Positions 3,908 to 30,194 of a stretch of 64,000 nt of DNA are shown here, piece after piece. The translations under genes were made by a program, and so were the position numbers. Numbering within the stretch: the first letter of the stretch is position 1; each line of letters begins with the position of its first letter. This DNA is from Nocardioides sp. S5 (GTDB lineage: Bacteria; Actinomycetota; Actinomycetes; Propionibacteriales; Nocardioidaceae), in assembly GCF_017310035.1 (NCBI RefSeq), contig NZ_CP022296.1:3472001-3536000 (forward strand), given 5' to 3'. The notes under the pieces are model-generated. The model saw nothing but the letters and a program-made list of their open reading frames with translations. It did no database searches and was not told the DNA's origin.

Positions 3908-3912
3908 GAATC

Positions 3913-7856: not shown

Positions 7857-7890
7857 GGCCTTACCCCCGGTTCTTGGACACGGGGTGTGA

Positions 7891-9149: not shown

Positions 9150-9278
9150 GATTCCTGGATCATCTCGCTTCCCCAGCAGGTGCTGGATTCAGCGTGTCCA
9201 AGAACCGGGGTCAGGCCCCAAGGACGTCAAGCACCTGACAGGACCCCATGAATCGGTCCGGCTCGTGTGAGAGCCGGT

Positions 9279-10110
9279 TCAGTGGATGCAGGCGGCAGCG
9301 TATCGAGCCGGGGTGAGGTAGCCCAGGGATGAGTGCCGCCGGTGGTGGTTGTATTCCTCCTTCCAGTCGCCGATGACGACCTTGGCGTGGGCCAGGGACC
9401 AGAACAGGTTGATGTTGAGGCATTCGTCGCGGAGCGTTCCGTTGAACGACTCGATGAAGGGGTTCTTCCAGGGCTCGCCGGGCGGGATGAACAACATCCC
9501 GGTCCGGCCGTAGGCCCAGTCGGCCAGCGTGGTCGCGTTCATCTCGGGTCCGTTGTCGAGCCGTAGCACCGCGGGTGCGGTCCGCCGGCTGCGCACGATC
9601 CGGTCGAGCTCGTCGGAGAGCTTCTCGGCGGTGATGGACCGCTCGACCAGGCCGCCGAGGCATTCACGGGTGTGCTCATCGATGACCGAGAGGATCTTGA
9701 TCGGACGGCCGTCGGTGGTGGAGTCGAACTGGAAGTCGATGGCCCACACTTGTTGGGTGCGTCCGCGACCGGGACCGGGCCGCTGGTGGAGGACCCGGCC
9801 CGCTTGCGTCGACGCACGACCACGCGCAGGCCTTCCTCGCGCCACAGCCGCTGGATCTTCTTGTGGTTCACCGTCCAGCCCTCACCGCGGGCGTCGTGGT
9901 AGGCCCGCCGGTGACCCCACCGCGGGTGCTTGCCGGCGTACTCCCGTAGCCACTCCCGAAGTGCCGCGTCCGGGTCCTCGGTCGTTTGGGAGACCGGCTG
10001 GTGGCGTTGTGTCGATCAGTGCTGCCCGACCACCCGGCAAACGAACCGTTCACTGACCCCGAGTACCTCGACGAGGTGGTGAACGGCTGCCCGCCGGCGG
10101 GCCGGGCTCA
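9279..10110 (-). pseudogene. IS3 type a OrfB, with internal stop and frameshift
   Basis: Integrase-core transposase. From the 5' side, LSPARRRAAVHHLVEVLGVS and ERFVCRVVGQH are read, then TGA at 10016-10018 where relatives have Arg, then STQRHQPVSQTTEDPDAALR and HKKIQRLWREEGLRVV. Near 9750 a one-base loss moves reading from DAPNK to VWAIDFQFDSTTDGRP (first Asp). RLDNGPEMNATT (second Asp) and NPFIESFNGTLRDECLN (Glu) follow to the stop at 9279. The same stop and frameshift occur in copy 2. Confidence 0.85.
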
Positions 10111-10389
10111 GAATTCCCCCTTGGCGATCTCCTTCAATGCCGCCTTCTCCAGCTCGGCCTCGGCCAGCAGCCGCTTCAAGGTGGCGTTCTCCCGCTCGAG
10201 CTCCTTGAGCCGCTTGGCGTCTTGGGCCTTGAGCCCGCCGAACTGGTTACGCCACCGGAAGTAGGTCTGCTCAGAGACCCCCAGCTGCCGGGCGACCTCG
10301 GCCACCTCGGCACCCTGGGCCAGAAGCCGGTCAGCGTCCTGAAGCTTGCGGACCACCTGCTCGGTGGTGTGTCGCTTCCTTGTTGTCAT
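10108..10389 (-). CDS. IS3 type a OrfA
   Basis: 93-residue helix-turn-helix subunit: MTTRKRHTTEQVVRKLQDAD, then GAEVAEVARQLGVSEQTYFRW and a coiled coil rich in Leu and Glu ending ALKEIAKGEF. Start ATG 10389. Intact here; the copy 2 homologue is split by IS30. Confidence 0.9.
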   Translation of the reverse strand: MTTRKRHTTEQVVRKLQDADRLLAQGAEVAEVARQLGVSEQTYFRWRNQFGGLKAQDAKRLKELERENATLKRLLAEAELEKAALKEIAKGEF

Positions 10390-10466
10390 GGGTCGAGCCT
10401 CTCCGCCCGCACACGCGGGCATCAAGACTCTCACTCGACCCGGACCGACCAGAGGGGGTCACGCCA

Positions 10467-10876
10467 CCGGCACCGGGTACGTCCACTCGGTCACCGCGAC
10501 CGCGGCGAACATCCACGACCTGGACGAGGCGGTCAATCTGGTGCGTGCCGATGACGAGGTCGTCTACGCCGATGCCGGCTACCAAGGAGCCGAGAAGCGG
10601 CCCGAGATCGCCGGGGACGAGCATCTATCGGGGGACGAGTGGCGAGTCGCTGCTCGCAAGGGCGTGCTGGAGACGATGACCGATCACGACGGCGCGTTGG
10701 AGTCGCGCAAGGCGTCGGTGCGGGCGACGGTCGAGCATCCGGTCTTGATCGTCAAGCGTGACTTCGGGTTCACCAAGACCCGCTACTGCGGCATCGGGAA
10801 GAACCTGAACCACCTACACATGCTGTTCGCCTCGGCGAACTGGTTGATGCGGGCACGTGCCGTCGCTCCAATGTGA
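10467..10876 (+). pseudogene. IS5-family transposase, C-terminal half
   Basis: Reads GTGYVHSVTATAANIHDLDE, then EVVYADAGYQGAEKR (second catalytic Asp region), VEHPVLIVKRDFGFTKTRYC (YREK-like C-terminal region) and LFASANWLMRAR to the stop at 10876. It starts abruptly at the IS3 type a end. Its N-terminal part (ending KAHIGVDAG) is at 26465-26684 beside the other IS3 copy. The two pieces share CCGG at the break and rejoin in frame as VDAGTGYVHSV. Confidence 0.85.
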
Positions 10877-11159
10877 TGACGGCCAGGCGTCAGCCAGCCG
10901 AAACCTCCCACCAGCGCTCCGAACACCGGGCCCCGGGGTGCCGTACCAGGGCTCTGACAGCCCCCTCAGCGTCACCCAATGGCTGCGGTCGGCTCCCTCG
11001 CACGCGAACTGGCCTGTTGATCAGCGCATCCCTAGAGACACCTCCCGCTGGTCAGCCAACGGTCACCATTTGATGGCGGGGAGTAGTTCGTGATTTCCGG
11101 CAGGACTGCGCCCCGTATCATGCGCATGCCGGTGCGGGGGAGTCTCAGCCGAAAGCCCC

Positions 11160-11570
11160 TTACTGGCGGTCACGGAGCAGGAAACTTCCGGACGCGGTGG
11201 CGATCAAGACACCGTCGAGGTTAAGAACTTCGGCACGCGCATGAGCGATCGACCGTCCGGCACGCAGCACGACCGCATCGCACTCGAGGTCGTGCGCCGC
11301 TGCCGATCGCAGGTAACTGACGGATAGGTCGATTGTCGGCCCCAGTCTTGGGTGCACGACGGACAGCACGGACCAGCCCATGGTCATGTCGCATAGCGTT
11401 GCGATCACCCCGCCCTGGACGACCCCGAGCATCTGCAGGTAGTGAGACCGGAACGGCATCCGCAGCCGGGCCTTTCCGTTTGCGCAGGAGAGAACGCGGA
11501 CCCCCATGTGACCCGCCAGGAGATGCGGAGCGAAACCCAGGTCCATCAACTCGTCAAACGATTCGGTCAC
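11160..11570 (-). CDS. PaaI-family acyl-CoA thioesterase (hotdog fold)
   Basis: 136-residue hotdog thioesterase that probably hydrolyses surplus or dead-end acyl-CoA to recycle CoA. GVVQGGVIATLCDMTMGWSV is the central hotdog helix; the QGG...CD pattern corresponds to the HGG...D motif of PaaI-type enzymes, with Gln in place of His. TIDLSVSYLRSAA and VLRAGRSIAHARAEV are the following strands. It is the last gene of the minus-strand operon that starts at 18611, overlapping the acyl-CoA ligase by 17 bases. Cytoplasmic. Confidence 0.85.
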   Translation of the reverse strand: MTESFDELMDLGFAPHLLAGHMGVRVLSCANGKARLRMPFRSHYLQMLGVVQGGVIATLCDMTMGWSVLSVVHPRLGPTIDLSVSYLRSAAAHDLECDAVVLRAGRSIAHARAEVLNLDGVLIATASGSFLLRDRQ

Positions 11571-13149
11571 TAGTCGACCCGTCCTCCTGGAGGAACCGCT
11601 GCTTCAGCACGAACTTCTGAATCTTGCCACTTCCGGTCTTTGGGAATTCGTCTATAAGGACGATATGACGGGGCACCTTGAACCACGCGAGTCGCTCCTT
11701 CAGGTGCGCCCGAAGGGCCTCCGGGCTGGCGCTCGCGGCAGGCAATAGCTGCACGTACGCGACACCGACCTCATCCAGCCGCTCGTCTGGCACCCCGATC
11801 AGCGCGGCCATCGCCACGGCTGGGTGCCGCATGAGCAGAGTCTCCACCTCGATGGGGTCGACGTTTTCGCCGCCGACGCGCAGGATCTCCTTGATCCTGC
11901 CCGCAAAACGGACAAAGCCCTCGGGAGTGATCGACGCCGCGTCCCCGGTGCGGAACCAGCCCTCGCTGTCGAGAACCTCCTCCGTGGCCGCCGGCTTCTT
12001 GTAGTAGCCGAGCATCACCGGGTGCCCCCGGACAACTAGCTCGCCGACGGTGTCCGAACTGAGTGTCTCGCCATCCGGGCCGACGACCTTCACCTCAAAG
12101 CCAGGAAGTGGCTTGCCGACGGTATCGGCGCGGAACCCCATCGGATCGTCCAGAGTGCAAAGGGTGGTGATCGATGTTGTCTCGGTCATTCCGTAGACAT
12201 TGACGGCTGGCCCCATCCTCTCCGTCGTTAGCCGCACCAGGTCCCCGGTTCCCGGGGTGAGGCAGAGTCGGACCGAGGACAAGTCACGCTTGTCGAAATC
12301 CTCATGCTGCATCTGGTCGTAGTACATAGTGCTGATGCCGTAGACCACAGTGGCCCGCTCGCGCTCCATTAACTCCAGCGACCTGGCTACGTCGTACTCC
12401 TCGACCAGAACAATCTTCCCCCCAGCGTACAAATATGTGACCACCGCCGCAGCTCCGAAGACATGATAGAGCGGCAAGTAGAGAACCACGGCGTCCTGCG
12501 GCGACAGCTGCATCCGATCCGCGGCGTCTGCCATGTTACGAATGACCGCGTGCGAGTGCATCGCGCCCTTCGGGAACCCCGTGGTTCCTGACGTGTACAG
12601 CGTTAGCACCACGTCGTCCGGTCCGACCGACGCCTTGCGCTCGGCCAGCGCCTCCGGGCTTACCTCGTCCGCGCGCGCCAGCAACTCTTCGGCGCCAATC
12701 GCACCCGTCGGCACTGTCGCGCCCACAACTACCAACGTCCTCGCGCTCACCCGATCGTCCCGCAGCACCCTCAGGCCCTCGTCTGCCAGCGAGCGCCCGC
12801 GCACCTGCCCCCCCACAATGAACATCACTGAGTCCGACTGGCCGACGACATAGCCGATCTCGTCCACCTGGAAGGCGGTGTTGACGGGGACCAGCGCAGC
12901 CCCGATCTGAGCAAGAGCCAGGTGAATCAGGACCCACTCCAACCGGTTGGTCATCATCAACGAGACTCTGTCGCCGTGCGAGATACCCGCGGCCATTAGC
13001 GCCCTGGCCCAGACGTCGGCTTCCTCCGCAAGTCTCTGGAAGGTGCGCCGCTGGTCACCGAAGACGTACGCCTCGCGATCGCCGAACCGCTCAACCGCGC
13101 TCTCCAGCAGTTCCCCGATCGTAGCCTCACTCAGATCGATCGTCATCAT
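11554..13149 (-). CDS. FadD-type acyl-CoA synthetase (AMP-forming)
   Basis: 531-residue class I adenylate-forming enzyme that activates a carboxylic acid with ATP and CoA. P-loop TLYTSGTTGFPKG sits at 183-195. YGMTETTS (adenine site), GWFRTGDAASIT (ribose-binding Asp), the hinge GRIKEILRVGGENVDP and the C-terminal catalytic lysine motif PKTGSGKIQKF are all present. Start ATG ATG at 13149/13146 with AGAGGAG about 8 bases upstream. Preceded by about 157 bases without a gene and followed by a thioesterase. It probably supplies the CoA ester used by the dehydrogenase pair, SDR and thiolase upstream. Chain length or ring preference cannot be read. Confidence 0.92.
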   Translation of the reverse strand: MMTIDLSEATIGELLESAVERFGDREAYVFGDQRRTFQRLAEEADVWARALMAAGISHGDRVSLMMTNRLEWVLIHLALAQIGAALVPVNTAFQVDEIGYVVGQSDSVMFIVGGQVRGRSLADEGLRVLRDDRVSARTLVVVGATVPTGAIGAEELLARADEVSPEALAERKASVGPDDVVLTLYTSGTTGFPKGAMHSHAVIRNMADAADRMQLSPQDAVVLYLPLYHVFGAAAVVTYLYAGGKIVLVEEYDVARSLELMERERATVVYGISTMYYDQMQHEDFDKRDLSSVRLCLTPGTGDLVRLTTERMGPAVNVYGMTETTSITTLCTLDDPMGFRADTVGKPLPGFEVKVVGPDGETLSSDTVGELVVRGHPVMLGYYKKPAATEEVLDSEGWFRTGDAASITPEGFVRFAGRIKEILRVGGENVDPIEVETLLMRHPAVAMAALIGVPDERLDEVGVAYVQLLPAASASPEALRAHLKERLAWFKVPRHIVLIDEFPKTGSGKIQKFVLKQRFLQEDGSTSDRIV

Positions 13150-13306
13150 CGCTAGTGCTCCTCTTCCATTCTACGTGAATCAGTTCTGTGCCAGTTGCCG
13201 GTTGCCGCCATGCGAGGCGGGATAGGGGTGCATCCCGACCTGTTCCTCTGCAGTCAGCTCATCGCGTGCAAGGTTCCCGCCCTCAGCGTCAGTCCTGGCG
13301 CTCACG

Positions 13307-14062
13307 TCAGCTCGCCATGTAGCTACCACCGTCGACGCACAGCACCTGTCCGGTGACGTAGCTCGCGGCTTCGCTGGCAAGGAACTGGAAGGCCTGAGCC
13401 ACCTCGTCGGTCTCCGCCCAGCGGCGGAGCGGAATCCGGTCGAGGTACTGCTGCGCGAACCGTTCGTCGGTGCGGATAGTCTCCGTCATCTTCGTGGCTG
13501 CGGCCGGCGATACCGCGTTGACCCGGATTCCGCACCGGCCGAGCTCACGGGCAGCGGACTTGGTGATCGCCGTGATCGCGCCCTTGGCCGCCGCGTAGTT
13601 GATCTGGCCCACCGTGCCGGCCAGGCCGGCGGACGACGTGACATTGATGATCGACCCTCCAGCCCCGGTCGCCCTCATGGCGCGGGCCGCTTCCCTCGTG
13701 CCGAGGAAGGTGCCACGGACATGGACGCGGATGACGAGGTCGAAGTCGTCCACCTCCATCCTGTAGAGCATGGCCGGACGAGTGACACCTGCATTGTTGA
13801 CCCAGACTCCTAGTACGCCCAGGTGTGGGACAACGGCCTGTGCGATGCGCGCCACGTCGCCCTCGTCACCCACGTCTGCCACAACTGCCACGACGCGGTG
13901 GCCGAGCTCGTTGAGCTTTTCCACGGCGGCATGAACCGCGTCCTCGTCGCGGTCGACCAGCACCACCCCGGCACCAGCCTCAGCCAGCGCGGTTGCAACG
14001 GCTAGGCCGATGCCCTGCGCGGCGCCGGTCACCACGGCCGCTCGTCCGTTGAGATCACGCAC
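13307..14062 (-). CDS. Short-chain dehydrogenase (FabG-like, 3-hydroxyacyl-CoA dehydrogenase)
   Basis: 251-residue classical SDR: TGAAQGIG at 12-19, NNAG at 89-92, catalytic Ser143/144, Tyr156 and Lys160 (INYAAAKG), and a C-terminus ending VDGGSYMAS. It probably oxidises the 3-hydroxyacyl-CoA made in this pathway. GTG 14062 is used because GGAGG is a few bases upstream. The start overlaps the thiolase stop by 8 bases, so the two are translationally coupled and form the dehydrogenation-thiolysis end of the operon. Confidence 0.9.
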   Translation of the reverse strand: MRDLNGRAAVVTGAAQGIGLAVATALAEAGAGVVLVDRDEDAVHAAVEKLNELGHRVVAVVADVGDEGDVARIAQAVVPHLGVLGVWVNNAGVTRPAMLYRMEVDDFDLVIRVHVRGTFLGTREAARAMRATGAGGSIINVTSSAGLAGTVGQINYAAAKGAITAITKSAARELGRCGIRVNAVSPAAATKMTETIRTDERFAQQYLDRIPLRRWAETDEVAQAFQFLASEAASYVTGQVLCVDGGSYMAS

Positions 14063-15215
14063 TAGGGCCCTCCAGCACGGTTATCGCGGACACTGCTGTC
14101 GGTCCGCCTACATTGTGAGCAAGGGCCCATTTGGCCCCATCGACCTGATTGACCGCATGGCCACGTAGCTGCTCGAACAGCTCGGTGCACTGAGCGATTC
14201 CGGTGGCGCCCGGTGGGTGTCCTTTGGACAGAAGCCCGCCGCTCGGGTTGACCGGGAGCGAGCCGCCGATGGACGTCTCCTCCTTCTCGAGCAGACGCGG
14301 CGCCTCACCCCGACCGCAGAAACCGAGGTCCTCGTACGTCATCATCTCCACGCCCGTGAAGCAGTCGTGCACCTCGGCGACATTGATGTCCTGCGGGCCG
14401 ATGCCCGCCATCGCGAAGGCTTGCTTCGCAGCCCGCCTGGTCGCTGCGAACGAAGAGAGATCCTCCTTGTGGGCGTGCATGATCCTGTCCATCCCAGTGC
14501 CGACTCCGCGAACCCACACCGGGTGATCGGTGTACCGGTTGGCGATGTCCTTGCTGACCAGAAGGACGGCGGCCGCGCCGTCACTCTGCGGCACACAGTC
14601 GAGAAGACCGAACGGCTCGACGACCATGGGTGCATTGAGCACCTGTTCCATGCTCACCTCGAACCGGAGGTGTGCGTGGGGGTTCGTGGCACCGTTGTGA
14701 TGGTTCTTCATCGCTACACGAGCCAGGTGCTCGCGGGTTGCCCCGAACTCATGCATGTACCGAGCCACGTGAAGAGCGAAGCTTCCCGGTGAGATGAGCC
14801 CGAGCGGAAGGTCCCACGCCATGTCTCGGTTGGTGGACATCCATTCCCAGAAGGTCGAGCTGGACGAGGTGTCACGCACTTTGTCGGCGCCCAGGACGAG
14901 TGCGACGTTGACATACCCTCCGCCGACGGCGTACACCGCCTGCCGGATCGCGTCGTTCCCACTGGCACAAGCGTTCTCGACCCTGGTCACCGGGATGTCG
15001 AGGAGCCCGCACGTGTCCGCGAGCAGTCCAGCCGGGAAACCGTCCACGCTTTGGACCTCGCTAAACCACGCGGCGCCGATCTCGTCGGCCCGCATGCCCT
15101 TGTCGACGCTGTCCAACGTCGCCTGGAACGCCTTCGCGACCATGTCCTTGAGGCTCTGGTGGAAGAGCTCGCCGAACGGGATCATCCCGGCGCCGACGAT
15201 CGCGACCTCTCTCAT
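14055..15215 (-). CDS. SCP-x type thiolase with complete catalytic triad
   Basis: 386-residue thiolase of the lipid-transfer/SCP-x group. Nucleophile Cys83 lies in ENACASGNDAI, His283 in EVHDCFTG and His333 in GHPPGATG, so it can do true thiolysis, unlike the homologue at 44471. ATG 15215 with GAGGAG upstream; its start overlaps the stop of the HMG-synthase-like/DUF35 gene by 4 bases. Thiolases of this group usually work with a DUF35 protein, and here that partner domain is fused to the adjacent gene product. Likely releases acetyl- or propionyl-CoA from a 3-keto intermediate. Confidence 0.9.
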   Translation of the reverse strand: MREVAIVGAGMIPFGELFHQSLKDMVAKAFQATLDSVDKGMRADEIGAAWFSEVQSVDGFPAGLLADTCGLLDIPVTRVENACASGNDAIRQAVYAVGGGYVNVALVLGADKVRDTSSSSTFWEWMSTNRDMAWDLPLGLISPGSFALHVARYMHEFGATREHLARVAMKNHHNGATNPHAHLRFEVSMEQVLNAPMVVEPFGLLDCVPQSDGAAAVLLVSKDIANRYTDHPVWVRGVGTGMDRIMHAHKEDLSSFAATRRAAKQAFAMAGIGPQDINVAEVHDCFTGVEMMTYEDLGFCGRGEAPRLLEKEETSIGGSLPVNPSGGLLSKGHPPGATGIAQCTELFEQLRGHAVNQVDGAKWALAHNVGGPTAVSAITVLEGPSA

Positions 15216-16417
15216 GACTGCTCCTCAGGTTGAAAGGCGTACCCGTAGTCGGGGATGCCGGCTCTCGTGGCGATCCGCCGAAGCACCAGCTGTCCTGTGG
15301 CGCCGATGCCGGCTCGGCCCGGCTCGTGATCTGTCACGTGCGCCAGGACGCGGACATCGCTGCCGGCGAGGTCGACCACGGCGAGTGAGTAAGGGACGGT
15401 CTTGCCAGGCACGGCTGCCCTGACGGTGACGACGGAGTAGATGCTCGCGGCGCGAGGCAGCGGCTTTAGGCTCTGGGAGTACATCGAACCGCACGTCTGG
15501 CAGCGGACCCGTGGTGGATAGTGCACCGTTCCGCAGGGACAAACACCGGCCTTCAATCCGACCTTGGCCTCGAATGCTCGCTCGTACGCAGCCAGGGACG
15601 CCGGGAGCTCGATCGAACCCACAGGAGTCTGCGCCGCACCGGCAGGCCAGGGCTCTCGTTCCTCGACGAACACCGGCAGGGCACCGTCGACCGTCACCCG
15701 GACAGCCAGTCCGTGGCCGTTTTCGACGCCGACCAGGCGGGTGGACCCCGTGACGTCGGACAGGCAAGCCAGGACGAGCAGTGGGGATGCCGCTTCCACC
15801 TCCGCGACGCCGTGCTCTGCCTTCGGTGCGAGCCTTCGGACCTCCTGCTCCGGGACGCCGGCTACAGCGAGCGATTCCGGTTCGAGGTCGTCGGCGAGTC
15901 CCTGGATCACGCGCTTCCAGCCGCGCTCCCGCAACAGCCGGGGATCGTCATACAGCAGATCGGCGGCACCCGGCAGTGGCACCGTGCGCACCGGGACGCT
16001 GTGGCGCACCTGGCCGCATCGCTCGATCGAGACCGGGCCCGGACCTACCAGCGCTGCCGCAGAGGCGGTGGGGGTCTTCTGGTCGATAGCGATCACCAGA
16101 GTCCCGGGAGCAGACGAGAGCAGCGCGTCCAGGGTTTCGGGGGCGCCACCGAGCCTCTCGACGAGAGGCGTGCCCGGGTCGAGCCCAAGGCCTTCGAGTA
16201 CCACCTCTGGTGTGGTCCCGAGCAAGGCGTCCGGGCGACGGCCCACCAGGACCACCCGGTCGACGGACGCGAGGTGCGACCCGAGCAGGCGTCCCGACGA
16301 GATGGCCAGGGTTGCGGAGTCCTCATCGTTCCCCGCCATCCGACGACCACGCTTGTCAGCCCAGACCGGGCGATATGTTGCGAGGGCACTGATCTCCACT
16401 GCTTCTCCCCTGTTCAT
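15212..16417 (-). CDS. HMG-CoA-synthase-like domain fused to DUF35 zinc-ribbon/OB-fold
   Basis: 401 residues. The N-terminal about 270 residues resemble a thiolase-fold HMG-CoA synthase (ISALATYRPVWADKRG at the start, repeated half near 210-260), but the cysteine position carries no Cys (LVERLGGAPETLDALL), so it is probably structural. The C-terminal part is DUF35: a rubredoxin-like ribbon with Cys293, Cys295, Cys306 and Cys309 (CPCG...CQTCG), then an OB fold. ATG 16417 is preferred over an upstream frame because it overlaps the previous stop as ATGA and the fold starts there. DUF35 partners support thiolases and hydratases on sterol-like CoA esters, which fits its place between a dehydrogenase pair and a thiolase. 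Confidence 0.83.
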   Translation of the reverse strand: MNRGEAVEISALATYRPVWADKRGRRMAGNDEDSATLAISSGRLLGSHLASVDRVVLVGRRPDALLGTTPEVVLEGLGLDPGTPLVERLGGAPETLDALLSSAPGTLVIAIDQKTPTASAAALVGPGPVSIERCGQVRHSVPVRTVPLPGAADLLYDDPRLLRERGWKRVIQGLADDLEPESLAVAGVPEQEVRRLAPKAEHGVAEVEAASPLLVLACLSDVTGSTRLVGVENGHGLAVRVTVDGALPVFVEEREPWPAGAAQTPVGSIELPASLAAYERAFEAKVGLKAGVCPCGTVHYPPRVRCQTCGSMYSQSLKPLPRAASIYSVVTVRAAVPGKTVPYSLAVVDLAGSDVRVLAHVTDHEPGRAGIGATGQLVLRRIATRAGIPDYGYAFQPEEQS

Positions 16418-17469
16418 GTTTGGGTCACAGACGGCCAGAGGGCGTCCGCACCTTGGTCCCTCACGAGCTCCCCCAGGCGTTGCTCCCACTGGCCTTCGGT
16501 CCCGTTCTCGTCGCGCCAGGACCAGAGCCGCCGAGTGAAATGCTGCAGGCGGTGCTCACGCGTAAAGCCGATGGCTCCGTGGATCTGGTGGGCGATCGTG
16601 GCCACCGTCGTCGCGGACCGCGCGCTGCGGACCCTTGCGGAAAGGATCGCCAACTGAGCTTCCGGTCCTTCGGACATGGCTGCCTGCACGGCACCCTCGG
16701 CGGAAGCTCCGGCCACCAGCACCTCACCGGTGAGAAGCGAGATCTGTTGCCGTACCGACTGGAACGACGCCAGGGGCTTTCCGAACTGCTCACGTTCCTT
16801 CACGTACCGGACACACAGGTCGAGAACCCGGTCCAGCGCTCCCGCCAGCAACAACGAGGTGGCAAGTGCCCGGCGTACGTCGAGCTCGGAGCCCAGCCGC
16901 GACTCGACCTCACGAACGGATGCCTTGAAGACGTGGGCGTCCAACGTCACGCGACCGCAAGGTTCGCCAGCCGCGTTCGTGCCTGCCTCGACATTGGTGC
17001 TCGACGAGTCCACTTCGGTGATGACAAGGCCCTCTGAGGACTCGGCCAGCAGGATCATCGAGTCCGAGACTGCTGCCCATGGGACGTCGCTCACGGATCC
17101 CGTGATCAGCCAGCCTTGATCTGTGCTGTCAGCACGCAGGCCGGATCCGGAAACCACGACAACGGCCCCACTGCGGTGAGGCAGGCCGGTCCGCGCCCGT
17201 AGCCACGGCGCTACCAGGAGTGCGTCTCCAACAGGGACCGGCGCGGCGAACGCTGCACAGAGCCTGACGATGGCTGCCGCGTCGGTCAGGTCACCCCCGG
17301 CACCTCCCTCAGCCTCAGGGCGCCCCACCTCCAGCAGCTCGAGCTCGGTCAGAGTCTTCCACAGCTCGCTGTCCAGGGTCCCTTCTGCGGCCTCCACTCG
17401 CTCCGGGGAGCAGGCGTCGGACAGGACGCTGGTCAGCATCTGCCGCAGCTCGTCGCGTTCGTCGGTCAC
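16414..17469 (-). CDS. Acyl-CoA dehydrogenase, smaller member of a probable heteromeric pair
   Basis: 351-residue acyl-CoA dehydrogenase family protein: all-alpha N-domain, a shortened middle beta-domain (VVVVSGSGLRADS) and a C-terminal domain with YVKEREQFGKPLASFQSVRQ, the FAD-contacting block of the family. The C-terminus lacks the usual GGTNEIQR segment. GTG 17469 overlaps the stop of the larger dehydrogenase at 17466-18611 (GTGA). Adjacent, coupled dehydrogenases of unequal type form alpha2-beta2 tetramers in steroid side-chain degradation (ChsE1/ChsE2, FadE28/FadE29); the same is inferred here. Confidence 0.85.
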   Translation of the reverse strand: MTDERDELRQMLTSVLSDACSPERVEAAEGTLDSELWKTLTELELLEVGRPEAEGGAGGDLTDAAAIVRLCAAFAAPVPVGDALLVAPWLRARTGLPHRSGAVVVVSGSGLRADSTDQGWLITGSVSDVPWAAVSDSMILLAESSEGLVITEVDSSSTNVEAGTNAAGEPCGRVTLDAHVFKASVREVESRLGSELDVRRALATSLLLAGALDRVLDLCVRYVKEREQFGKPLASFQSVRQQISLLTGEVLVAGASAEGAVQAAMSEGPEAQLAILSARVRSARSATTVATIAHQIHGAIGFTREHRLQHFTRRLWSWRDENGTEGQWEQRLGELVRDQGADALWPSVTQT

Positions 17470-18611: not shown

Positions 18612-18641
18612 GCGCGCTCCTTTGACTCTTTCTTATAATCA

Positions 18642-18664
18642 GGATGAGTATTGGTTAAAGTATC
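18642..18664 (+). promoter_or_regulatory. 23-bp motif in the divergent promoter region
   Basis: GGATGAGTA-N5-TAAAGTATC, 20 of 23 identical to the minus strand of 3230-3252. It lies between the divergent starts at 18611 and 18791, close to a TATAAT at 18634-18639. A binding site for the GntR or TetR regulator of this module is a reasonable guess. Confidence 0.45.
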
Positions 18665-18790
18665 AGGAATTGTGGGAGGCTGCCAGAACCCTCTCGTCCT
18701 TCGGGAGGGAGGGTCCGCTGGCACTGGTGCTGTGAACCCCCGCAATCGCACAGACCCAAAGTGCTCGCCGGCATGAGCGAAGGAGATTCG

Positions 18791-19951: not shown

Positions 19952-19982
19952 AGACGTGCAGTTCGGACAGAAAGGACCCATC

Positions 19983-21523: not shown

Positions 21524-21603
21524 TGCCTTCCGCCGGCCTCCTTCGTCGGCCGGTGCGCCAGGACCGCGGTGCGGGCGCGCTTGGAAGCGGTGTCAAGGAG
21601 GCC

Positions 21604-22341
21604 TCAGTCGCGCCAGCGGGACCGCGGGACGATGGGTTCCTGCAGTCGACCCTGGCCGCTGAGCAACTTCTCGAAGGCGTCGAGATGCTTTCGCATCACC
21701 TCTTCGGCTCTGTCAGGGTCCCCGTCGGCCACTGCTTGCGCGATCCGCAGATGAGCCTTGGCCACGGCTGAGACCTCCCGCTCGTCGATGGTCTCCAACC
21801 TGACGTGGCGGTCCAGCACCTCATGCAGGGCAACCAGCATGACGCGGAGAATCTCGTTGCCTGTGCACTCGGCGAGCTCACGATGGAAGTGAGTTGCACG
21901 TTCCGGATCTTCCTGCCCCTGCTTGACGTAGGCCAGCAGACGGTAGCGCACGTCGGCGTCGTCTGACGTTGCGGCGAGCCGGGCGGCCTGCGGCTCCACG
22001 ATCTTGCGGAACTGGAAGAAGTCTTCGAGCGGCGTCTGGTCGAGTGTGAACAGCAACGAGAGCGTGCGACTCACCTGGCTGAGGTCCGGACGTGCTACCC
22101 GGACACCCCCTCGCGGGCCGCGCTGGATCGTGATGAGACCTTCGGTCTCGAGCAGGCGAAGGGCCTCCCGCACGGTCCCACGACTGAAGCCGTGGCCTTC
22201 GATCAACTCCGACTCCGTGGTGAGCTGCGTTCCCGTCTCCAGCGACTGAGCGAGAATCTGCCCTCGCAACTCCGCCGCTAGGACCTCCGCGGCCTTGGGG
22301 AGACGACGCATGGGTCGGACGGCGCGCGGGGTGCTGGTCAT
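21604..22341 (-). CDS. GntR/FadR-family transcriptional regulator
   Basis: 245-residue regulator. The winged helix-turn-helix (TTESELIEGHGFSRGTVREA then LRLLETEGLITIQRGPRGG) occupies about residues 40-80. The FCD effector domain (from about 95) carries the His set typical of its metal or ligand pocket: THFHRELAE, KAHLRIAQAV and MRKHLDAF. FadR-type members bind acyl-CoA or small acids and usually repress nearby catabolic operons. ATG 22341 is the first sensible start, with a weak ribosome site. Position between the catabolic blocks suggests local control of module 1; the 18642 motif is one candidate site. Confidence 0.88.
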   Translation of the reverse strand: MTSTPRAVRPMRRLPKAAEVLAAELRGQILAQSLETGTQLTTESELIEGHGFSRGTVREALRLLETEGLITIQRGPRGGVRVARPDLSQVSRTLSLLFTLDQTPLEDFFQFRKIVEPQAARLAATSDDADVRYRLLAYVKQGQEDPERATHFHRELAECTGNEILRVMLVALHEVLDRHVRLETIDEREVSAVAKAHLRIAQAVADGDPDRAEEVMRKHLDAFEKLLSGQGRLQEPIVPRSRWRD

Positions 22342-22402
22342 CGGGGACCTACTTGTGACATGCAGCCAGTATCGCCCAGTGGCATGCCACGGAACGTACC
22401 GA

Positions 22403-23170
22403 TCATGCTTGTGTCGCCGTTGCCTGATCCCGAAGCGTCCCTCTGTGGAACGACCACATCTGCACCGACTGCTCGGCCTGCACCGCCGCGTCCAGCGCCA
22501 TGCCGATCGAGTTCGCCTCAAGGCGGAAGGAACGGGCCGTCCTGCGGGCGAGCGCTGGGTCCGCCGCGGCCGTGGCCGCGAGTTCGAACGCCAACCCTTC
22601 GACCTCATCGCTCGGCGCGCATCGCCAAGCCATCCCGATCGCGACAGCCTGTGCGCCGGTGAGGCTGTCGCCGAAGAGGCCGATTGCTGCCGCTGCCTCG
22701 CGACCAGCCGAGCGTGTGAGCAGTGTGAAGTGACCGCCGCCGGGATGTGCACCCAAGGGGATGAACCCCGAGACCAGCTTGGCATCATCCGCAACGATGC
22801 GCAGATCTGTTGAAAGCACGAGATTCAGGCCGGCGCCGACGGCGGCCCCACGCACGGCAGCCACCGTGGGGGGAAGTAACCGAGTGATCCGCAAGAACGA
22901 CTGGTAGATCCGGTCCAGCGTCCGGTACGCCTCGTCAGCTACGGGATTCTGGGCCACGGCAGCGAGCACGTCACGATGGGCACCCGCGCAGAAGGTCGGC
23001 CCGTCACTCAGGATCACCACTGCGCCCACCGACGGGTCTTCGTCGATGTCGTCACAGGCGGCCAGAATGGAGTCAGCCATCTCCGACGTCAGTGCATTCC
23101 GCCGCGAGGGCGCTGAAAGTGTCAGCGTGGCAACACCGTCCTCGCGCTTCTTGACCACAACCTCAGACAT
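22403..23170 (-). CDS. Crotonase-family protein, catalytic glutamate not evident
   Basis: 255-residue enoyl-CoA hydratase/isomerase family member. Oxyanion-hole blocks TFCAGAHRD and GAAVGAGLNLVLSTD are intact. Where hydratases have PExxxGxxPGxGG, this reads SGFIPLGAHPGGG with no Glu, so a simple hydratase role is doubtful; isomerase, hydrolase or dehalogenase-type chemistry of the superfamily is possible. ATG 23170 has AGAAGGAG upstream. It may be cotranscribed with the GntR gene 61 bases downstream. Confidence 0.84.
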   Translation of the reverse strand: MSEVVVKKREDGVATLTLSAPSRRNALTSEMADSILAACDDIDEDPSVGAVVILSDGPTFCAGAHRDVLAAVAQNPVADEAYRTLDRIYQSFLRITRLLPPTVAAVRGAAVGAGLNLVLSTDLRIVADDAKLVSGFIPLGAHPGGGHFTLLTRSAGREAAAAIGLFGDSLTGAQAVAIGMAWRCAPSDEVEGLAFELAATAAADPALARRTARSFRLEANSIGMALDAAVQAEQSVQMWSFHRGTLRDQATATQA

Positions 23171-23406: not shown

Positions 23407-24370
23407 TCAGCTGGCAGGCCTCGAAGTGGAAAGGCCATAGAGAAGGAGGTGCGCATAGATCTCGGCGATCTCCGCGGGCTGACGCGAACCCTCCGGGTTG
23501 TACCATCGCGCCGACGAGTTGAGCATGCCGACGAGCGTGCGCGTCAGGAATTCCGAGTTCAGATCCCTGAGCTCACCGGCCTTCATGCCGAGCTCAATGA
23601 CGCTCCGGAACACCGAAAGCCATTCACGACGCAGTTTGTCGATGCGCTCGTAGCCCTCATGCTCGAGGTACCGGAGGTTCTCGTTGACAACGGCGATGGC
23701 ATCCCGATGGGTGGCGACGAAGTCCATATGAGCGGAGACCAACCGGTACAGCTTCTCGAGGGCGCTGTCGCCAGGGGCCCATAGCCTTCTCCAGCGCGTC
23801 TATCCCCTCCTCGATGGTCGCGCGATGGATCTCCTCCAGGAGATGTTGTTTGTACCTGGCGTGGTACATGACCACCCTTGGTCACGTCGGCCGCTGCGGC
23901 AAGATCACGCATGGATGTCGCGTGGTAGCCGGCCTGACGAAGCTGACGACTGCCGCGGCGCGAACACGTTCCCGCGCCGTGGCGGTGGCGCTGGTCGCGC
24001 CGGCGTTGCCACTGCGCTTCTTCTTGACCCGGGTGGCACCAAGACCCTTGGCGCGATCGACCACGGCTCCATGGAGGAAGAGATCGATGTACTCGTCCGC
24101 GATTTGCGAAGGAGTCAACGCCCCTGCAGGGCTGTACCAGTGGTACATCTCCGTCATCGCGCTCAGGACGGCCTGCGCCACCAGTCGCGGATCGAGGTCC
24201 ACGAATACTCCGCGCGAGATGCCTGCTTGGATCAACGAGACCGCATAGGACTCGTACGCATCTCGGCGCTGTTCGACGAGCAGCCGGCGGTCAGCACCGA
24301 GGTGTTTGCGCTCCTCGAAGAACACGCTGATCTCCGTCTGGTGATCGGTGACCAGCTGCACGTGGCGGCG
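23407..24370 (-). pseudogene. Tandem TetR-type regulator, N-terminally truncated and frameshifted
   Basis: Two KstR2-like TetR units follow each other on the minus strand. The first lacks its DNA-binding domain (cut at about 24370 by an IS1380 end) and shows a ligand domain VTDHQTEISVFFEERKHLG and TEMYHWYSPAGALTPSQIAD. Without a stop the frame continues through KKKRSGNAGATSATATARER into the start of a second unit. After frame changes that reads AGYHATSMRDLAAAADVTKGG (helix-turn-helix), QHLLEEIHRATIEEGIDALE and NSSARWYNPEGSRQPAEIAE, ending at 23407. At least three indels are needed. It was either two genes or one double TetR protein; not functional as written. Confidence 0.72.
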
Positions 24371-24460
24371 TACTAAGCCTCGATCTACCGATGAGCAGGG
24401 GCGGCGTGGGTCGGCATTGGTCACGGCGCTTGTAGCGAGTGCGGGCGTGGTTGTGCACCG
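24366..24460 (+). mobile_element. IS1380-type end fragment
   Basis: About 95 bases starting CTAAGCCTCGATC, nearly identical to 51282-51372 where they form the end of a larger IS1380 element. It truncates the first TetR unit. A second tip-like CCTCGATCCACCGATG follows at about 24463 in the same orientation. Confidence 0.65.
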
Positions 24461-24523
24461 GCCTCGATCCACCGATGGGGTTGGTGAGGATCGCGTGATC
24501 GTGGCCGCGGCGGTATGAGGGGA

Positions 24524-25418
24524 TCAGGGCGCGATGGTCGGCCGGACCTCGCCGTCCGGGCGTTTCACATGGGTTCTCCATTGCGCCTCGGCGAAACCGG
24601 TGAGCCCGTCACAGCACACGATCAGCACGTCGCGGACGCCGCGGTTGGCCAGGTCCGCACAGACGCCGGCCCAGAACTTCGCGCCCTCAGTGGCCTGGAT
24701 CCAGATGCGCAGGACGTGCTTGATGCCGTCCATGTCGACGCCGACCGCGATGTGCGCGGCTTTGTTGATCACGTGCGCGCCGTCACGGACCTTCACGACC
24801 AGCGCGTCGAGGTAGATGACCGGATACAGCGACTCGAGCGGGCGCCGCTGCCAGGCCAAGATCTCCTCGCCGATCTCGTCGGTGATCTTGCTGATCGTCT
24901 CGTGAGAGAGGTCGGTGCCGATCGTGGTCGCGAGGTGGTGCTGGATGTCGCGCAGCGTCATCCCGCCCGCGTAGAGGCTGATGATCATCTCGTCGAGCCC
25001 ACCGAGCCGGCGTGAGCCCTTCGGAACCAGCCGCGGAATGAACGTCCCGTCCCGGTCCCGCGGGACCTCCAGCGGCACCTCGCCCACCTGTGAGGCCATC
25101 GTCTTGGGAGTGGCGCCGTTGCGGGAGTTGGCGAACAGCGACGCCTCGGCCGAGCCCTTCTCGTAGCCCAGATGATCGGACAGCTCGGCTTGTAGGCCGC
25201 GCTCGAGCGCGGCCTTGATCAGACCGGGGATGAAGCCGCCATCGCCGGTCAGTTCCAGATCGCCGGCATCGATGCGGGCGAAGATGTCGTCCAGAGCTCC
25301 GGACGCCGCCATCTCAGCAGCGACGTCAGAGCCACGACGATCAGACTGTTCGTCGGTCACGAGGTCCATCATGTTCCTTTCAGATGGACCGATCCCTTAC
25401 ACAGAAGATCTGACACCC
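24524..25418 (-). pseudogene. IS256-family transposase, C-terminally truncated (copy A)
   Basis: Mutator/IS256 DDE transposase from ATG 25372 with AAAGGAAC upstream; the element tip (GGGGTGTCAGATCTTCTGTG inverted) ends at about 25418. TGDGGFIPGLIKAALERGLQ is the typical N-terminal block, and VIYLDALVVKVRDGAHVINK carries the first Asp. VCCDGLTGFAEA carries the second Asp, but the frame then runs into unrelated sequence (QWRTHVKRPDGE) and stops at 24524. Over 100 residues, including the last catalytic Glu region, are missing. Copy B is at 52498. Confidence 0.85.
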
Positions 25419-25423
25419 CCCGC

Positions 25424-25962
25424 AGCGGTGACCGTGCAGACCGGCCTTCGCGTCAGCGAGGTCTGCTCACTCACGATCGACGACGTCTATCTCGGCACTG
25501 GGCCTCACGTCACCTGCACCGGCAAAGGACGACGGCAACGCATCACGCCCTTGACCAGTGCAACCGTGAGCGTGATGACGGCCTACTTCACTGAGCGGAC
25601 CGCCCGGCCCGGAACCGCGCTGTTCTGCGGTCCCCGCGGACAGGCCCTGTCCCGCGATGCACTCGAGCATCGCCTTGCCACCTACGTCGCGGCCGCAGTG
25701 ATCGCCTGTCCCGGCCTCGCCGGCAAGCACGTCACGATGCACACCCTGAGACACACCGCAGCGATGAACTGCTCGCCGCCGGGGTTGCGTCGCCGTCATC
25801 GCGCTGTGGCTCGGGCACGCCGACACCCGCAGCACCGACGCATACCTCCACGCCGACATGGCCATCGAGCAAGCAGCCCTCGACCGAACACGACCACCAG
25901 ACGTAAAGCCCGGGGTCTACCGCCCCGAGCCCGGCATCCTCGCCTGGCTCGCAGCCCTCTGA
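25424..25962 (+). pseudogene. RIT-type tyrosine recombinase, C-terminal catalytic part (copy A)
   Basis: Integrase-fold recombinase truncated on its 5' side by the IS256 tip. QTGLRVSEVCSLTIDDV holds the first catalytic Arg and TMHTLRHTAAMN the HxxR box. After two small shifts VAVIALWLGHADTRSTDAYL gives the last His/Trp and Tyr region, ending PEPGILAWLAAL. This ending resembles the third recombinase of recombinase-in-trio (RIT) elements. A shorter inverted copy is at 54229-54520. Confidence 0.7.
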
Positions 25963-26050
25963 CTATGCCGACCATCCCGCGCCGAATGCCCCACCACCAC
26001 AGCCCGTCACAACGACCGTCGGCATAGTCCGGAGGTCGGCATAGGACATC

Positions 26051-26070
26051 CAATGCCGACGTCGGCATTG
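26051..26070. repeat. 20-bp perfect palindrome at the RIT-type element end
   Basis: CAATGCCGACGTCGGCATTG reads the same on both strands and recurs at 54121-54140. It marks the point where the recombinase element enters the IS3 type b OrfB gene (after the codons for RRYVGD). Several further GCCGAC/GTCGGC units lie within 100 bases on the element side. Confidence 0.75.
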
Positions 26071-26072
26071 CA

Positions 26073-26391
26073 TGTCACCGACGTAGCGACGGTTCGGCGC
26101 ACCAGCGGTGAAGTCCCGCTTGAGCAGGTCCGGCACCTTCTGCTCAGGCGTCTCGTCCGCTGGAGCCGACAAGGTCGATGAGCTGGGTGTCTTGGACTGC
26201 AGCGGACTGGTGGTCAGCGTCCCGTCGCCAGCGGTCTTCTTGCCGGTCCCGTACGCCTCAAGCCAATGGCGCAACGTGCCACGCACGATGCCCAGGTCCT
26301 CAGCGATGCCGCGGAGCGTGGCTCCTGGCGTGGACTCGTACAAGTCGACGGCCTGACGACGGAACTCCTCGGAGTAGTTCTTCCTGGCCAT
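26073..26391 (-). pseudogene. IS3 type b OrfA fused to an OrfB internal fragment (copy A)
   Basis: From ATG 26391 the OrfA helix-turn-helix reads intact to DETPEQKV and then jumps in frame to PDLLKRDFTAGAPNRRYVGD of OrfB before meeting the palindrome. Comparison with copy B (53335-54119) shows both breakpoints share CAGAAGGT, so about 470 bases were lost by recombination at a short direct repeat. The IS tip (GGCCTGG/CCCCGGTTCTTG inverted) ends at about 26464. Confidence 0.78.
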
Positions 26392-26464
26392 AATTCTCGG
26401 GTCATCTCGCTTCCCCAGCAACAGGTGCTGGATTCAGCGCGTCCAAGAACCGGGGCCAGGCCCC

Positions 26465-26684
26465 AACAGCACGAACTGGGGGAGAAACTGCTGACCGCGC
26501 AGAACGAGATCTTCGAAGTGCAGGGCTGGATCATGCGCGGCGGGTCGATCGTGGACGCCACGATCATCGCTGCGCCGTCCTCGACGAAGAACGTCTCTGG
26601 TGAGCGTGACCCAGAGATGCATCAGACTAAGAAGGGCAACCAGTGGTACTTCGGGATGAAGGCCCACATCGGGGTCGATGCCGG
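26465..26684 (+). pseudogene. IS5-family transposase, middle part
   Basis: Reads [40 protein letters not shown] (first Asp) and [19 protein letters not shown] up to the IS3 type a end at 26685. The 5' side is replaced by the IS3 type b tip. It is the missing neighbour of the C-terminal half at 10467-10876. Confidence 0.85.
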
Positions 26685-26727
26685 TGACAGGACCCCATGA
26701 ATCGGTCCGGCTCGTGTGAGAGCCGGT

Positions 26728-27559
26728 TCAGTGGATGCAGGCGGCAGCGTATCGAGCCGGGGTGAGGTAGCCCAGGGATGAGTGCCGCCGGTGGTGGTTG
26801 TATTCCTCCTTCCAGTCGCCGATGACGACCTTGGCGTGGGCCAGGGACCAGAACAGGTTGATGTTGAGGCATTCGTCGCGGAGCGTTCCGTTGAACGACT
26901 CGATGAAGGGGTTCTTCCAGGGCTCGCCGGGCGGGATGAACAACATCCCGGTCCGGCCGTAGGCCCAGTCGGCCAGCGTGGTCGCGTTCATCTCGGGTCC
27001 GTTGTCGAGCCGTAGCACCGCGGGTGCGGTCCGCCGGCTGCGCACGATCCGGTCGAGCTCGTCGGAGAGCTTCTCGGCGGTGATGGACCGCTCGACCAGG
27101 CCGCCGAGGCATTCACGGGTGTGCTCATCGATGACCGAGAGGATCTTGATCGGACGGCCGTCGGTGGTGGAGTCGAACTGGAAGTCGATGGCCCACACTT
27201 GTTGGGTGCGTCCGCGACCGGGACCGGGCCGCTGGTGGAGGACCCGGCCCGCTTGCGTCGACGCACGACCACGCGCAGGCCTTCCTCGCGCCACAGCCGC
27301 TGGATCTTCTTGTGGTTCACCGTCCAGCCCTCACCGCGGGCGTCGTGGTAGGCCCGCCGGTGACCCCACCGCGGGTGCTTGCCGGCGTACTCCCGTAGCC
27401 ACTCCCGAAGTGCCGCGTCCGGGTCCTCGGTCGTTTGGGAGACCGGCTGGTGGCGTTGTGTCGATCAGTGCTGCCCGACCACCCGGCAAACGAACCGTTC
27501 ACTGACCCCGAGTACCTCGACGAGGTGGTGAACGGCTGCCCGCCGGCGGGCCGGGCTCA
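26728..27559 (-). pseudogene. IS3 type a OrfB, copy 2
   Basis: Identical by eye to the OrfB at 9279-10110, including the in-frame TGA (at about 27465) and the one-base frameshift (at about 27199). Catalytic blocks VWAIDFQFD, RLDNGPEMN and NPFIESFNGTLRDE are readable. Confidence 0.85.
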
Positions 27560-27764
27560 GAATTCCCCCTTGGCGATCTCCTTCAATGCCGCCTTCTCCA
27601 GCTCGGCCTCGGCCAGCAGCCGCTTCAAGGTGGCGTTCTCCCGCTCGAGCTCCTTGAGCCGCTTGGCGTCTTGGGCCTTGAGCCCGCCGAACTGGTTACG
27701 CCACCGGAAGTAGGTCTGCTCAGAGACCCCCAGCTGCCGGGCGACCTCGGCCACCTCGGCACCC

Positions 27765-29024
27765 GGCGAGTTCCAGACCACGTCGCAACACCCCTGCTAG
27801 ATGAAGGGGCATGACGATGGGCAGACGGGGCCGCAAGCGGCGTCTAGGAGTCGAGGACGAGTACTGGCAGTTGATCCTGGCCGGGGTGGGCACGGTGGAG
27901 GCCTGCAAGCTGGTCGGCGTTGGCCGAAAGACCGGGTACCGGTGGCGAGCCGAGCGCGGTGGCCTCCCACCGCTGCGCCGCGTCGAGCACCAGCGCTCTG
28001 ATCGCTACCTGTCACTGCTGGAGCGGCAACGCATCGCCACGCTGCGGCGCCATGGCCTCTCGATACGCGAGATCGCTCGCCAGCTCTTCCGCGCGCCCTC
28101 CACGATCAGCCGTGAACTGCGCCGCAACACGTCCCTGCATGACGTCGGCGGGTACGACGGAGATCTGGCGCACAGCCGCGCCAGGGAGCGTGTGGAGCGT
28201 CCGCGCGGCGGTCGGCTAGCGACCGTTCCGGGGTTGCGCGAGGCGGTCCAGTCCAAGCTAGAACTGGAGTGGAGCCCGGAGCAGATCGCGGCCTGGCTTC
28301 GCGCCGAGTACCCGGGTCGGCCACGGTGGCATGTGTGTCACGAGACGATCTATCAGGCGCTCTACAGCGGCGCGAAAGGCGGCCTGAGCAGGCAACTGAC
28401 CAAGAAGCTCCGTACTGGACGGCCACTGCGCAAGCGTCGTCGACGCGCACAGGAGCGGACGCCCCGTTTCATCGCGCCGGCGCTGTTGATCGACCACCGC
28501 CCTGCCGAGGCGGCGGAGCGCAGCCGAGTCGGTGACTGGGAAGGGGACCTGATCACCGGTCGTGCCGGTCAATCCGCGATCGGCACTCTGGTCTGTCGGC
28601 GAGGCCGCTACATCAAGCTCGTCCACCTGCCCGGTCGGCGCACCGCCGAGGACCTCGTCATCGGGCTGCGCGAGACCTTGGCGGAGTTGCCCGAGTCGGT
28701 GCGACTCACGCTGACCTGGGACCAGGGCTCGGAGATGGCCGGCCATGATCAAGTCGCAGACCTGTTCGCCGAGGGTGTGTTCTTCGCCCACGCAGGCAAG
28801 CCCTGGCAGCGGCCGACCAACGAGAACAGCAATGGTCTCTTGCGCCAGTACTTCCCCAAGGGCAGCGACCTGCGCGCATACACGGTGGACGACCTCCGCA
28901 GGGTGGAAGAGCGCTTGAACACCCGCCCTCGAAAGACGCTTGGGTGGATCACTCCGACTCAAGTCCTCAGTGCTTCGCTAGCCTCGTCGTGACCTTGGTG
29001 TTGCGACCCCATCTCGAATCCGCC
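27765..29024 (+). mobile_element. IS30-family element, copy 2
   Basis: Ends GGCGAGTTCCAGACC and inverted GGCGGATTCGAGATGG share GTCGCAACACC. It is inserted in IS3 type a OrfA and encodes a full-length transposase. The length of 1260 bp matches copy 1. Confidence 0.85.
27811..28992 (+). CDS. IS30-family transposase, intact
   Basis: 393-residue DDE transposase. N-terminal MTMGRRGRKRRLGVEDEYWQ, helix-turn-helix LSIREIARQLFRAPSTISREL, then catalytic VGDWEGDLITG (Asp), TWDQGSEMAGHD (Asp) and NENSNGLLRQYFPKGSDL (Glu), ending PTQVLSASLASS. ATG 27811 with AAGGGGC upstream. Homologous along its length to the frameshifted copy at 5979-7161 but with scattered substitutions, so the two are not recent duplicates. 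Likely active. Confidence 0.95.
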   Translation: MTMGRRGRKRRLGVEDEYWQLILAGVGTVEACKLVGVGRKTGYRWRAERGGLPPLRRVEHQRSDRYLSLLERQRIATLRRHGLSIREIARQLFRAPSTISRELRRNTSLHDVGGYDGDLAHSRARERVERPRGGRLATVPGLREAVQSKLELEWSPEQIAAWLRAEYPGRPRWHVCHETIYQALYSGAKGGLSRQLTKKLRTGRPLRKRRRRAQERTPRFIAPALLIDHRPAEAAERSRVGDWEGDLITGRAGQSAIGTLVCRRGRYIKLVHLPGRRTAEDLVIGLRETLAELPESVRLTLTWDQGSEMAGHDQVADLFAEGVFFAHAGKPWQRPTNENSNGLLRQYFPKGSDLRAYTVDDLRRVEERLNTRPRKTLGWITPTQVLSASLASS

Positions 29025-29228
29025 CTGGAACTCGCCCGGCACCAGGGGGTCAGGATTCACCCGGCAGCGACACACCCTGGGCCAGAAGCCGGTCAGCGTC
29101 CTGAAGCTTGCGGACCACCTGCTCGGTGGTGTGTCGCTTCCTTGTTGTCATGGGTCGAGCCTCTCCGCCCGCACACGCGGGCATCAAGACTCTCACTCGA
29201 CCCGGACCGAACAGAGGGGGTCACGCCA

Positions 29229-30194
29229 CACCTGCCCGGACGGCCCAAGACCGACGTCCTGGACGCGGTGTGGTTGTGCAAGGTCGCCGAACGGCAGATG
29301 CTGCGGCCGAGCTTCGTGCCGCCACGGCCGATCCGGCAGTTGCGGGACCTGACTCGCTACCGGGTGGATCTGATCGAGGCAAGGACCGCGGAGAAGAGCC
29401 GGGTCGAGAAGCTGCCCGAAGACGCCTGCATCAAGCTCTCGGTGGTCGCCACCGACATCTTCGGGGTCTCAGGTCGGGAGATGATGGCCGCCCTGATCGC
29501 CGGGGAGCGGGACCCGGCCGTGCTGGCCGAGATGGCCCGCACCGCGATGCGTCGCAAGATTCCCGCGCTGCGAGAAGCGTTCACTGGTCACTTCGATGAG
29601 CACCATCGGTTCCTCCTGGAGCAGATGCTGAGCAGGATCGACGGGCTGGACGCCGACATCGCGCGGGTCGAGGAGAAGATCGAGACGCTGATCGCCCCTT
29701 TCGCCCAGGCGGCCGAGCGGCTCGATGAGATCCCCGGGGTAGGACCGATCTCAGCGGCGATCATCCTGGCCGAGGTCGGCACCGACATGTCCCGGTTCCC
29801 CACCGCCGGCCATCTGTGCTCGTGGGCCAAGGTCTCTCCGGGCATCAAGTCATCGGCCGGTAAGACCAAGGGAAACAGCTCGACCGGGCACGGCAACCGT
29901 TACCTCGCCCGCGTTCTCGGCGAGACCGCCGTCGTCATCGGGCGCAGCGACACCTTCCTCGGCGAGCGGTACCGACGCATCGCCCGACGACGCGGCAAGT
30001 GCAGGGCGATCGTCGCGGTCAGCCGCTCGATTCTCGTCATCGTCTGGCACCTTCTCAACGACCCCGATGCCCGCTACACCGACCTCGGCAGCGACTACTA
30101 CGGCCGCCACGTCAACACCGAGTCCAAGAAGCGCAACCACATCCGCCAGCTCGAGTCACTGGGCTACCGAGTCATTATCGAACCCGCCGCCTGA
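29229..30194 (+). pseudogene. IS110-family transposase, C-terminal part
   Basis: Continues the IS110 gene of 7562-7856 as HLPGRPKTDVLDAVWLCKVA, then the coiled-coil region DGLDADIARVEEKIETLIAP, the Tnp20/HhH block LDEIPGVGPISAAIILAEVG and the serine-containing CSWAKVSPGIKSSAGKTKG, ending YRVIIEPAA. The frame is open throughout but has no start of its own. The original target sequence CACC is shared with 9232-9235. Confidence 0.87.

Follow-up and report, generated by a model that had tools for sequence, protein, structure and literature searches.

The chromosome of Nocardioides sp. S5 includes a 16,218-bp block of DNA, carrying an acyl-CoA catabolic module, that lies between two copies of an insertion sequence (IS) of the IS3 family. 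The block can best be explained as a circular donor that became joined, at this IS, to the host chromosome within an IS110 gene, a reading to which we give a probability of roughly 0.86. The DNA analyzed, referred to as the window, is a stretch of 64,000 nucleotides (contig NZ_CP022296.1, C1:3472001-3536000). The assembly consists of a single contig of 4,749,522 bases and is 99.15% complete; the window is therefore chromosomal and not part of a plasmid, and in this respect the mention of related plasmids in an earlier interpretation of this DNA, made from its letters alone (the sequence-only reading), was off the mark. The IS bounding the block is named here IS3a (IS3 family, type a), and a second kind of IS3-type element is named IS3b. 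The starting point would have been a circle including the module and an IS5 gene. IS3a would have inserted into this IS5 gene, duplicating the tetranucleotide CCGG, and by way of IS3a the circle would have joined the chromosome within the IS110 gene. The outcome of these steps would be two direct copies of IS3a, with the CCGG of the donor facing inward and the CACC of the target facing outward. Events of this kind are already known, and this locus is an unusually clear case.

Both copies of IS3a begin with TGACAGGACCCC and finish with GGGGGTCACGCCA, and they are direct repeats. Copy 1 is preceded by CACC and followed by CCGG, and copy 2 is preceded by CCGG and followed by CACC (coordinates in Table 1). 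The swapped flanks described in the sequence-only reading are exact to the base on both copies, the common orientation that it assigned to them was borne out by alignment, and neither copy has CACC or CCGG on both of its sides. The first 1080 bases of the two copies are identical, and the other 151 include one mismatch; gene conversion between them is possible. When the genome of the strain was searched with IS3a (40 of 215 candidates were scored), the matches listed were copy 1, copy 2 in two pieces, and one other match of only 72% over about 210 bases.

Copy 2 is broken by a 1,313-bp insertion, absent from copy 1, with a transposase gene that we read as IS30-type from its matches to Pfam HTH_38 and rve. 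This element would have entered copy 2 once both IS3a copies were in place. Inspection of nucleotides 27765-29077 by eye indicated that the IS30-type element ends about 30-40 bases before IS3a restarts; these extra bases are possibly the scar of another insertion. The IS30-type elements at 5947-7207 and 27765-29024 are an inverted pair, 86-87% alike.

The gene split by the IS3a of the donor was identified by using the 16,218-bp block as the query against 195 genomes, one being that of the strain. Among the matches listed was a genome of the same genus, G057, in which the right half of the IS5 gene matches C35:30017-29551 and the left half C35:30233-30014, the two matches overlapping by exactly 4 bases. 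The G057 sequence through the site, GATGCCGGCACCGGATACGTCCACTCGG, has one CCGG as opposed to the two found here, and therefore the two parts in the window belong to a single IS5 gene that was interrupted, with 4 bp duplicated at the site. This contiguity agrees with the earlier proposal that the IS5 gene runs from the left of copy 2 to the right of copy 1. The IS5 right half had one match listed in the genome of the strain. The IS5 gene of the block is without its 5′ part, as it is cut at nucleotide 26465 by an IS3b remnant; this 5′ part was not found in the genome of the strain using the G057 sequence as query, a weak negative since the search included no positive control.

The target gene could be reconstructed in the same manner. 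Homologues of the IS110 gene were found at 19 new loci, eight of which were examined (L035 and L036, which match from the 5′ end, were left out). In all eight the gene is continuous through the target site, as expected if the gene continues from the left of copy 1 to the right of copy 2, which is what the sequence-only reading had claimed. The peptide of L025 is identical to the joined window reading across the site, KDVKHLPGRPKTD. No sister strain was found, the nearest IS110 relative being 79% identical, and the matches listed in the genome of the strain are one full match and one of 28 bases. Only 15 bases of the IS110 gene are found directly to the left of copy 1 because an IS3b element, which has AAGG on both sides (7853-7856 and 9220-9223, by eye), interrupts the gene there. 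The 5′ part resumes further left, within approximate limits shown in Table 1, and both parts of the gene are thus within the window. This 5′ part includes the peptide motifs EATSDYW and HGL.PWLVNA in the same order as the translated homologues, and its presence secures the inference that had been drawn earlier from the short flank. Two full-length 87% isoforms of IS3b are found in the genome of the strain (e.g. C1, 2003231, 1725894), and five more are split after about position 326.

The assignment of IS3a to the IS3 family is based on homologues annotated as members of this family, on the TG...CA ends and on the length of the target duplication. Six distinct homologous IS copies were read at both ends, and four of them have an exact 4-bp duplication: ATCC in L043, GACC in L044, TCAA in L101 (a copy from an M. 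avium plasmid, read by eye) and CCAG in L103. The remaining two, L042 and L102, have no duplication at plausible ends; in L042 the only candidate is 3 bases long and the ends match poorly. L104 shows the same site as L101 and was not counted, and L046, a partial match with weak candidates only, was left out. With respect to the homologues the orfB frame of IS3a shifts near position 715, in a region that is identical in both copies, as judged from the reading frames and from a 1-base gap near 715 in two alignments of 73% identity that have many other gaps. The homologue L042 likewise has a broken orfB frame at this place.

The topology of the locus is that of an integrated circle: direct IS3a copies bound the insert, the target duplication is found outside and the donor duplication inside. 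The IS5 right half, the module and the IS5 left part follow each other in that order, an arrangement whose ends can meet only in a circle or in tandem copies of it. Of these two we infer a free circle as the donor, and its size and the enzyme that joined it are likewise matters of inference. A circle with one IS3a would be 17,449 bp (nucleotides 10467-26684 plus 1,231 bp), or 16,214 bp before the entry of IS3a. As the IS5 gene is cut short at nucleotide 26465 this size is a lower bound, and the circle may have lost DNA; the earlier value of about 17.4 kb agrees with the arithmetic and holds as a minimum only. The topology also upholds the part of the sequence-only reading according to which a circular donor entered by way of IS3. 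The single crossover with a resident IS3 that it proposed is compatible with the data but is not the unique solution, since a circle transposed as a cointegrate leaves the same outer CACC pair.

The enzymes of the module, as recognized by Pfam, are a thioesterase, an acyl-CoA ligase, two short-chain dehydrogenases/reductases (SDRs), a thiolase, three acyl-CoA dehydrogenases and two enoyl-CoA hydratases; a ChsH2-type OB-fold protein and a GntR regulator are also encoded. The thiolase is presumably Ltp2-like, and we take the set to resemble one for side-chain removal, which would proceed by acyl-CoA dehydrogenation, hydration and retro-aldol cleavage. Ten proteins, of which the block encodes eight, were compared with NCBIfam, and no family in the rows listed exceeded its curated cut-off. 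Among the matches listed for the 194 other genomes, none to the module genes is long, and their DNA identity is 74% at most; in plasmid records the best relative of the thiolase has 64% identity. A search of genome contigs for the OB-fold protein gene gave ten loci. Two metagenome bins of Blastococcus (L061, L062) have the genes for the GntR regulator, the OB-fold protein, the thiolase and an SDR side by side, which shows that part of the cluster exists elsewhere.

In favor of an acquired circle, the module DNA is foreign in composition, with a modest contrast. Nucleotides 11040-25000 have a G+C content of 65.1%, whereas 20 chromosomal samples average 70.4%. Their tetranucleotide correlation is 0.652, and that of the samples has a leave-one-out mean of 0.883 and a minimum of 0.721. 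The baseline was taken from the first 14 kb of each sample, and one with a G+C content of 50.8% was kept. This contrast is tempered by other stretches: the correlation is 0.752 for nucleotides 1-5900 of the window, 0.837 for nucleotides 50000-64000 and 0.731 for L022, a shorter flanking stretch. A second catabolic block (30261-50000), with values of 0.626 and 0.543, is at least as foreign as the first.

Several observations weigh against a circular donor joined at IS3a. No replication gene was recognized among the 22 ORFs (open reading frames) of the block, a part of the total, that were scanned against Pfam, and as a consequence the circle as now seen was probably not self-maintaining; the donor circle may have been larger than seen, or may never have been a plasmid. 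Part of the module is matched by 22 plasmid records, none of which holds 80% of it, although this is weak evidence of absence. The circle in its free state was not seen in the 194 other genomes and the plasmid records, and neither was an IS110 gene interrupted by a lone IS3a. These genomes have no close relative of IS3a among the matches listed (those of at least 150 bases were at 67-78%), and no plasmid record has an IS3a match above 90%. The frameshift shared by the two copies suggests that the last transposition used a transposase from elsewhere, or that the copies were later made alike. In addition, a 9-kb stretch to the left of and partly in the window (L021), which is shorter than the samples, also has a low tetranucleotide correlation, 0.694.

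The circle could have joined the chromosome by two routes that yield identical letters, and we consider the odds between them roughly even. In the first, RecA would have mediated a crossover between the IS3a of the circle and an IS3a already resident in the IS110 gene. In the second, a transposase would have driven the fusion of the entire circle, as a cointegrate or through an IS-dimer junction. Because CACC is found on both outer sides a cointegrate also fits, and a resident IS3a is not required. Under either route the frameshifted IS3a must have transposed at least once, or the copies were homogenized later, so that the near identity of the copies and the frameshift do not discriminate between them. 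The insertion of a resident IS3a would likewise have required help in trans or such a homogenization.

Cointegrate-type transposition, in which the IS3a of the circle attacked the IS110 gene directly, duplicating itself and generating the CACC pair in one step, has a chance that falls somewhat short of even. Transposition in the IS3 family occurs mainly via an IS minicircle and gives simple insertions, and cointegrates are not known as its usual outcome; the shifted transposase frame in both copies also speaks against it. In its favor, it is one event with fewer prior steps that dispenses with an earlier IS3a in the IS110 gene, and no other close IS3a was listed in the search of the genome of the strain. 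The published replicative cointegrate has its IS copies in direct orientation and a newly made target duplication (PMC7986276), and IS30 dimers yield cointegrate-like fusions (PMC9333248). According to PMC11708052, transposition in the IS3 family is mainly donor-primed and replicative; that paper also discusses how duplications cease to be readable when IS copies recombine with each other.

Another explanation dispenses with a circle that was free when the insertion occurred. The 17.4-kb unit would have been present in the donor as a dimeric plasmid or in tandem copies, and IS3a, the module and the second IS3a would have moved out of it as a composite transposon. The outer CACC pair would be the normal mark of such a transposon, and two IS copies with one outer duplication are indeed found. 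There is also a precedent in Burkholderia thailandensis, in which a region bounded by IS2-like elements, first taken for circles, proved to be tandem copies (PMC9946442). However, the unit itself needs an earlier circle or an unequal exchange that joined the IS5 halves, an extra step giving the same letters, and we regard this explanation as unlikely. An assembly misjoin at IS3a between an ordinary IS3a in the chromosomal IS110 gene and a separate 17.4-kb circle with IS3a in the IS5 gene would also give these letters. It is quite improbable, since the assembly is one contig, the 1,313-bp insertion makes the copies distinguishable and no replication gene to keep a separate circle was recognized among the 22 ORFs; the circle would exist even so. 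Unrelated insertions with coincidental 4-mers have a negligible probability, as each split gene reads on in frame once its parts are joined and is uninterrupted in other genomes, two reciprocal exact 4-mers are expected by chance about once in 65,000 with equal base frequencies, and no point in support was found.

Other rearrangements were considered and rejected. An inversion between the IS3a copies was ruled out by their direct orientation, and intramolecular replicative transposition from the IS5 site was ruled out by the reasoning that it leaves one IS copy per product. The excision of an IS26-like translocatable unit was discarded because the IS3a flanks in the circle match, being IS5 parts with CCGG twice.

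The fusion of a circle at IS3a resembles events known in other bacteria. In Escherichia coli Hfr (high frequency of recombination) strains an IS3-bearing circle, F, is joined to the chromosome at an IS3, and recombination at IS3 is the route that the authors of PMC11148124 infer for the F′ plasmid of XL1-Blue. While F is a whole conjugative plasmid, the DNA described here is a 16.2-kb catabolic block without a recognized replication gene. In the replicative cointegrates of the IS6/IS26 type (PMC7986276), donor and target are parted by two direct IS copies and there is a new target duplication, as in this locus, which differs in having an IS3-family transposase and a 4-bp duplication. The translocatable unit of IS26 (PMC7986276) is a circle that does not replicate, carries passenger genes beside a single IS and joins a replicon at an IS. 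This unit is excised from between two IS copies, so we would expect its flanks, which according to the paper had not been reported, to be unrelated. The flanks of IS3a, in contrast, are two parts of one gene with a duplication, which implies that the circle existed before IS3a entered it. It is conceivable, though doubtful, that a non-replicating catabolic circle with one IS3-family element of frameshifted transposase was taken up and then joined at an IS, either through an IS dimer or by the targeted conservative reaction; if so, actinobacterial IS3-family elements would act as IS26 does for resistance genes. In Burkholderia thailandensis, where the movement of an IS2-bounded region is driven by RecA, circles released by recombination can integrate via IS recombination with IS2-like copies elsewhere, as the authors of PMC9946442 state. 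The joining of a circle at an IS, which in the locus described here may have been by recombination, is common to both cases, but that region is 208.6 kb, belongs to a single genome and was observed in the laboratory, whereas the locus described here is the fossil of an acquisition.

An IS-bounded block that offers two IS copies but unreadable flanks does not reveal its route of entry. In this locus both duplications and both interrupted genes survive, and as a result a single genome is enough to deduce how the acquired DNA was arranged, with uninterrupted homologues as a check. The locus can be considered a clean example of degradation genes reaching the chromosome, and recombination versus cointegration becomes testable in sister strains, although no new class of mobile element is opened by it.

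Table 1. Features of the IS3a-bounded block and its target (positions in the window).
Feature	Position	Strand	Basis
Target IS110 transposase gene, 5′ part; frame looks broken by eye	7562..7856	+	sequence, homologue motifs
IS3b element inside the IS110 gene	7857..9219	-	by eye; two 87% isoforms align over positions 1-1363
CACC, outer left 4-bp flank	9232..9235		sequence
IS3a copy 1, 1231 bp	9236..10466	-	sequence, alignment
CCGG, inner left 4-bp flank	10467..10470		sequence
IS5 element, 3′ half; coding to 10876; element end near 11030 by eye	10467..11030	+	G057 match to 10933
Catabolic module	11160..23170		Pfam
TetR-type regulator fragments, Mutator transposase fragment, tyrosine recombinase fragment	23407..26027		Pfam
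IS3b remnant joined to tyrosine-recombinase fragment; borders truncated 5′ side of the IS5 gene	26072..26465	-	alignment
Same IS5 transposase gene, middle part; ends in CCGG (26681-26684)	26466..26684	+	sequence, G057 match
IS3a copy 2 with 1,313-bp insertion; predicted IS30-type transposase gene at 27811-28992	26685..29228	-	sequence, alignment, Pfam
CACC, outer right 4-bp flank	29229..29232		sequence
Target IS110 transposase gene, 3′ part	29229..30194	+	Pfam Transposase_20, DEDD_Tnp_IS110; homologues

The join between the IS3b remnant and the tyrosine recombinase fragment is present twice in the window, at 25670-26465 and 53261-54521, in inverted orientation and 99% alike. The first of them is about 465 bp shorter (796 versus 1,261 bases) as a result of an internal deletion at a short repeat. 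This repetition indicates that the edge of the block has been rearranged and that the debris of the same mobile elements terminates both catabolic blocks. Near the end of each block there is also a copy of a 94-bp direct repeat (24373-24466 and 51280-51373; 96% alike), which may reflect a common source of the two.

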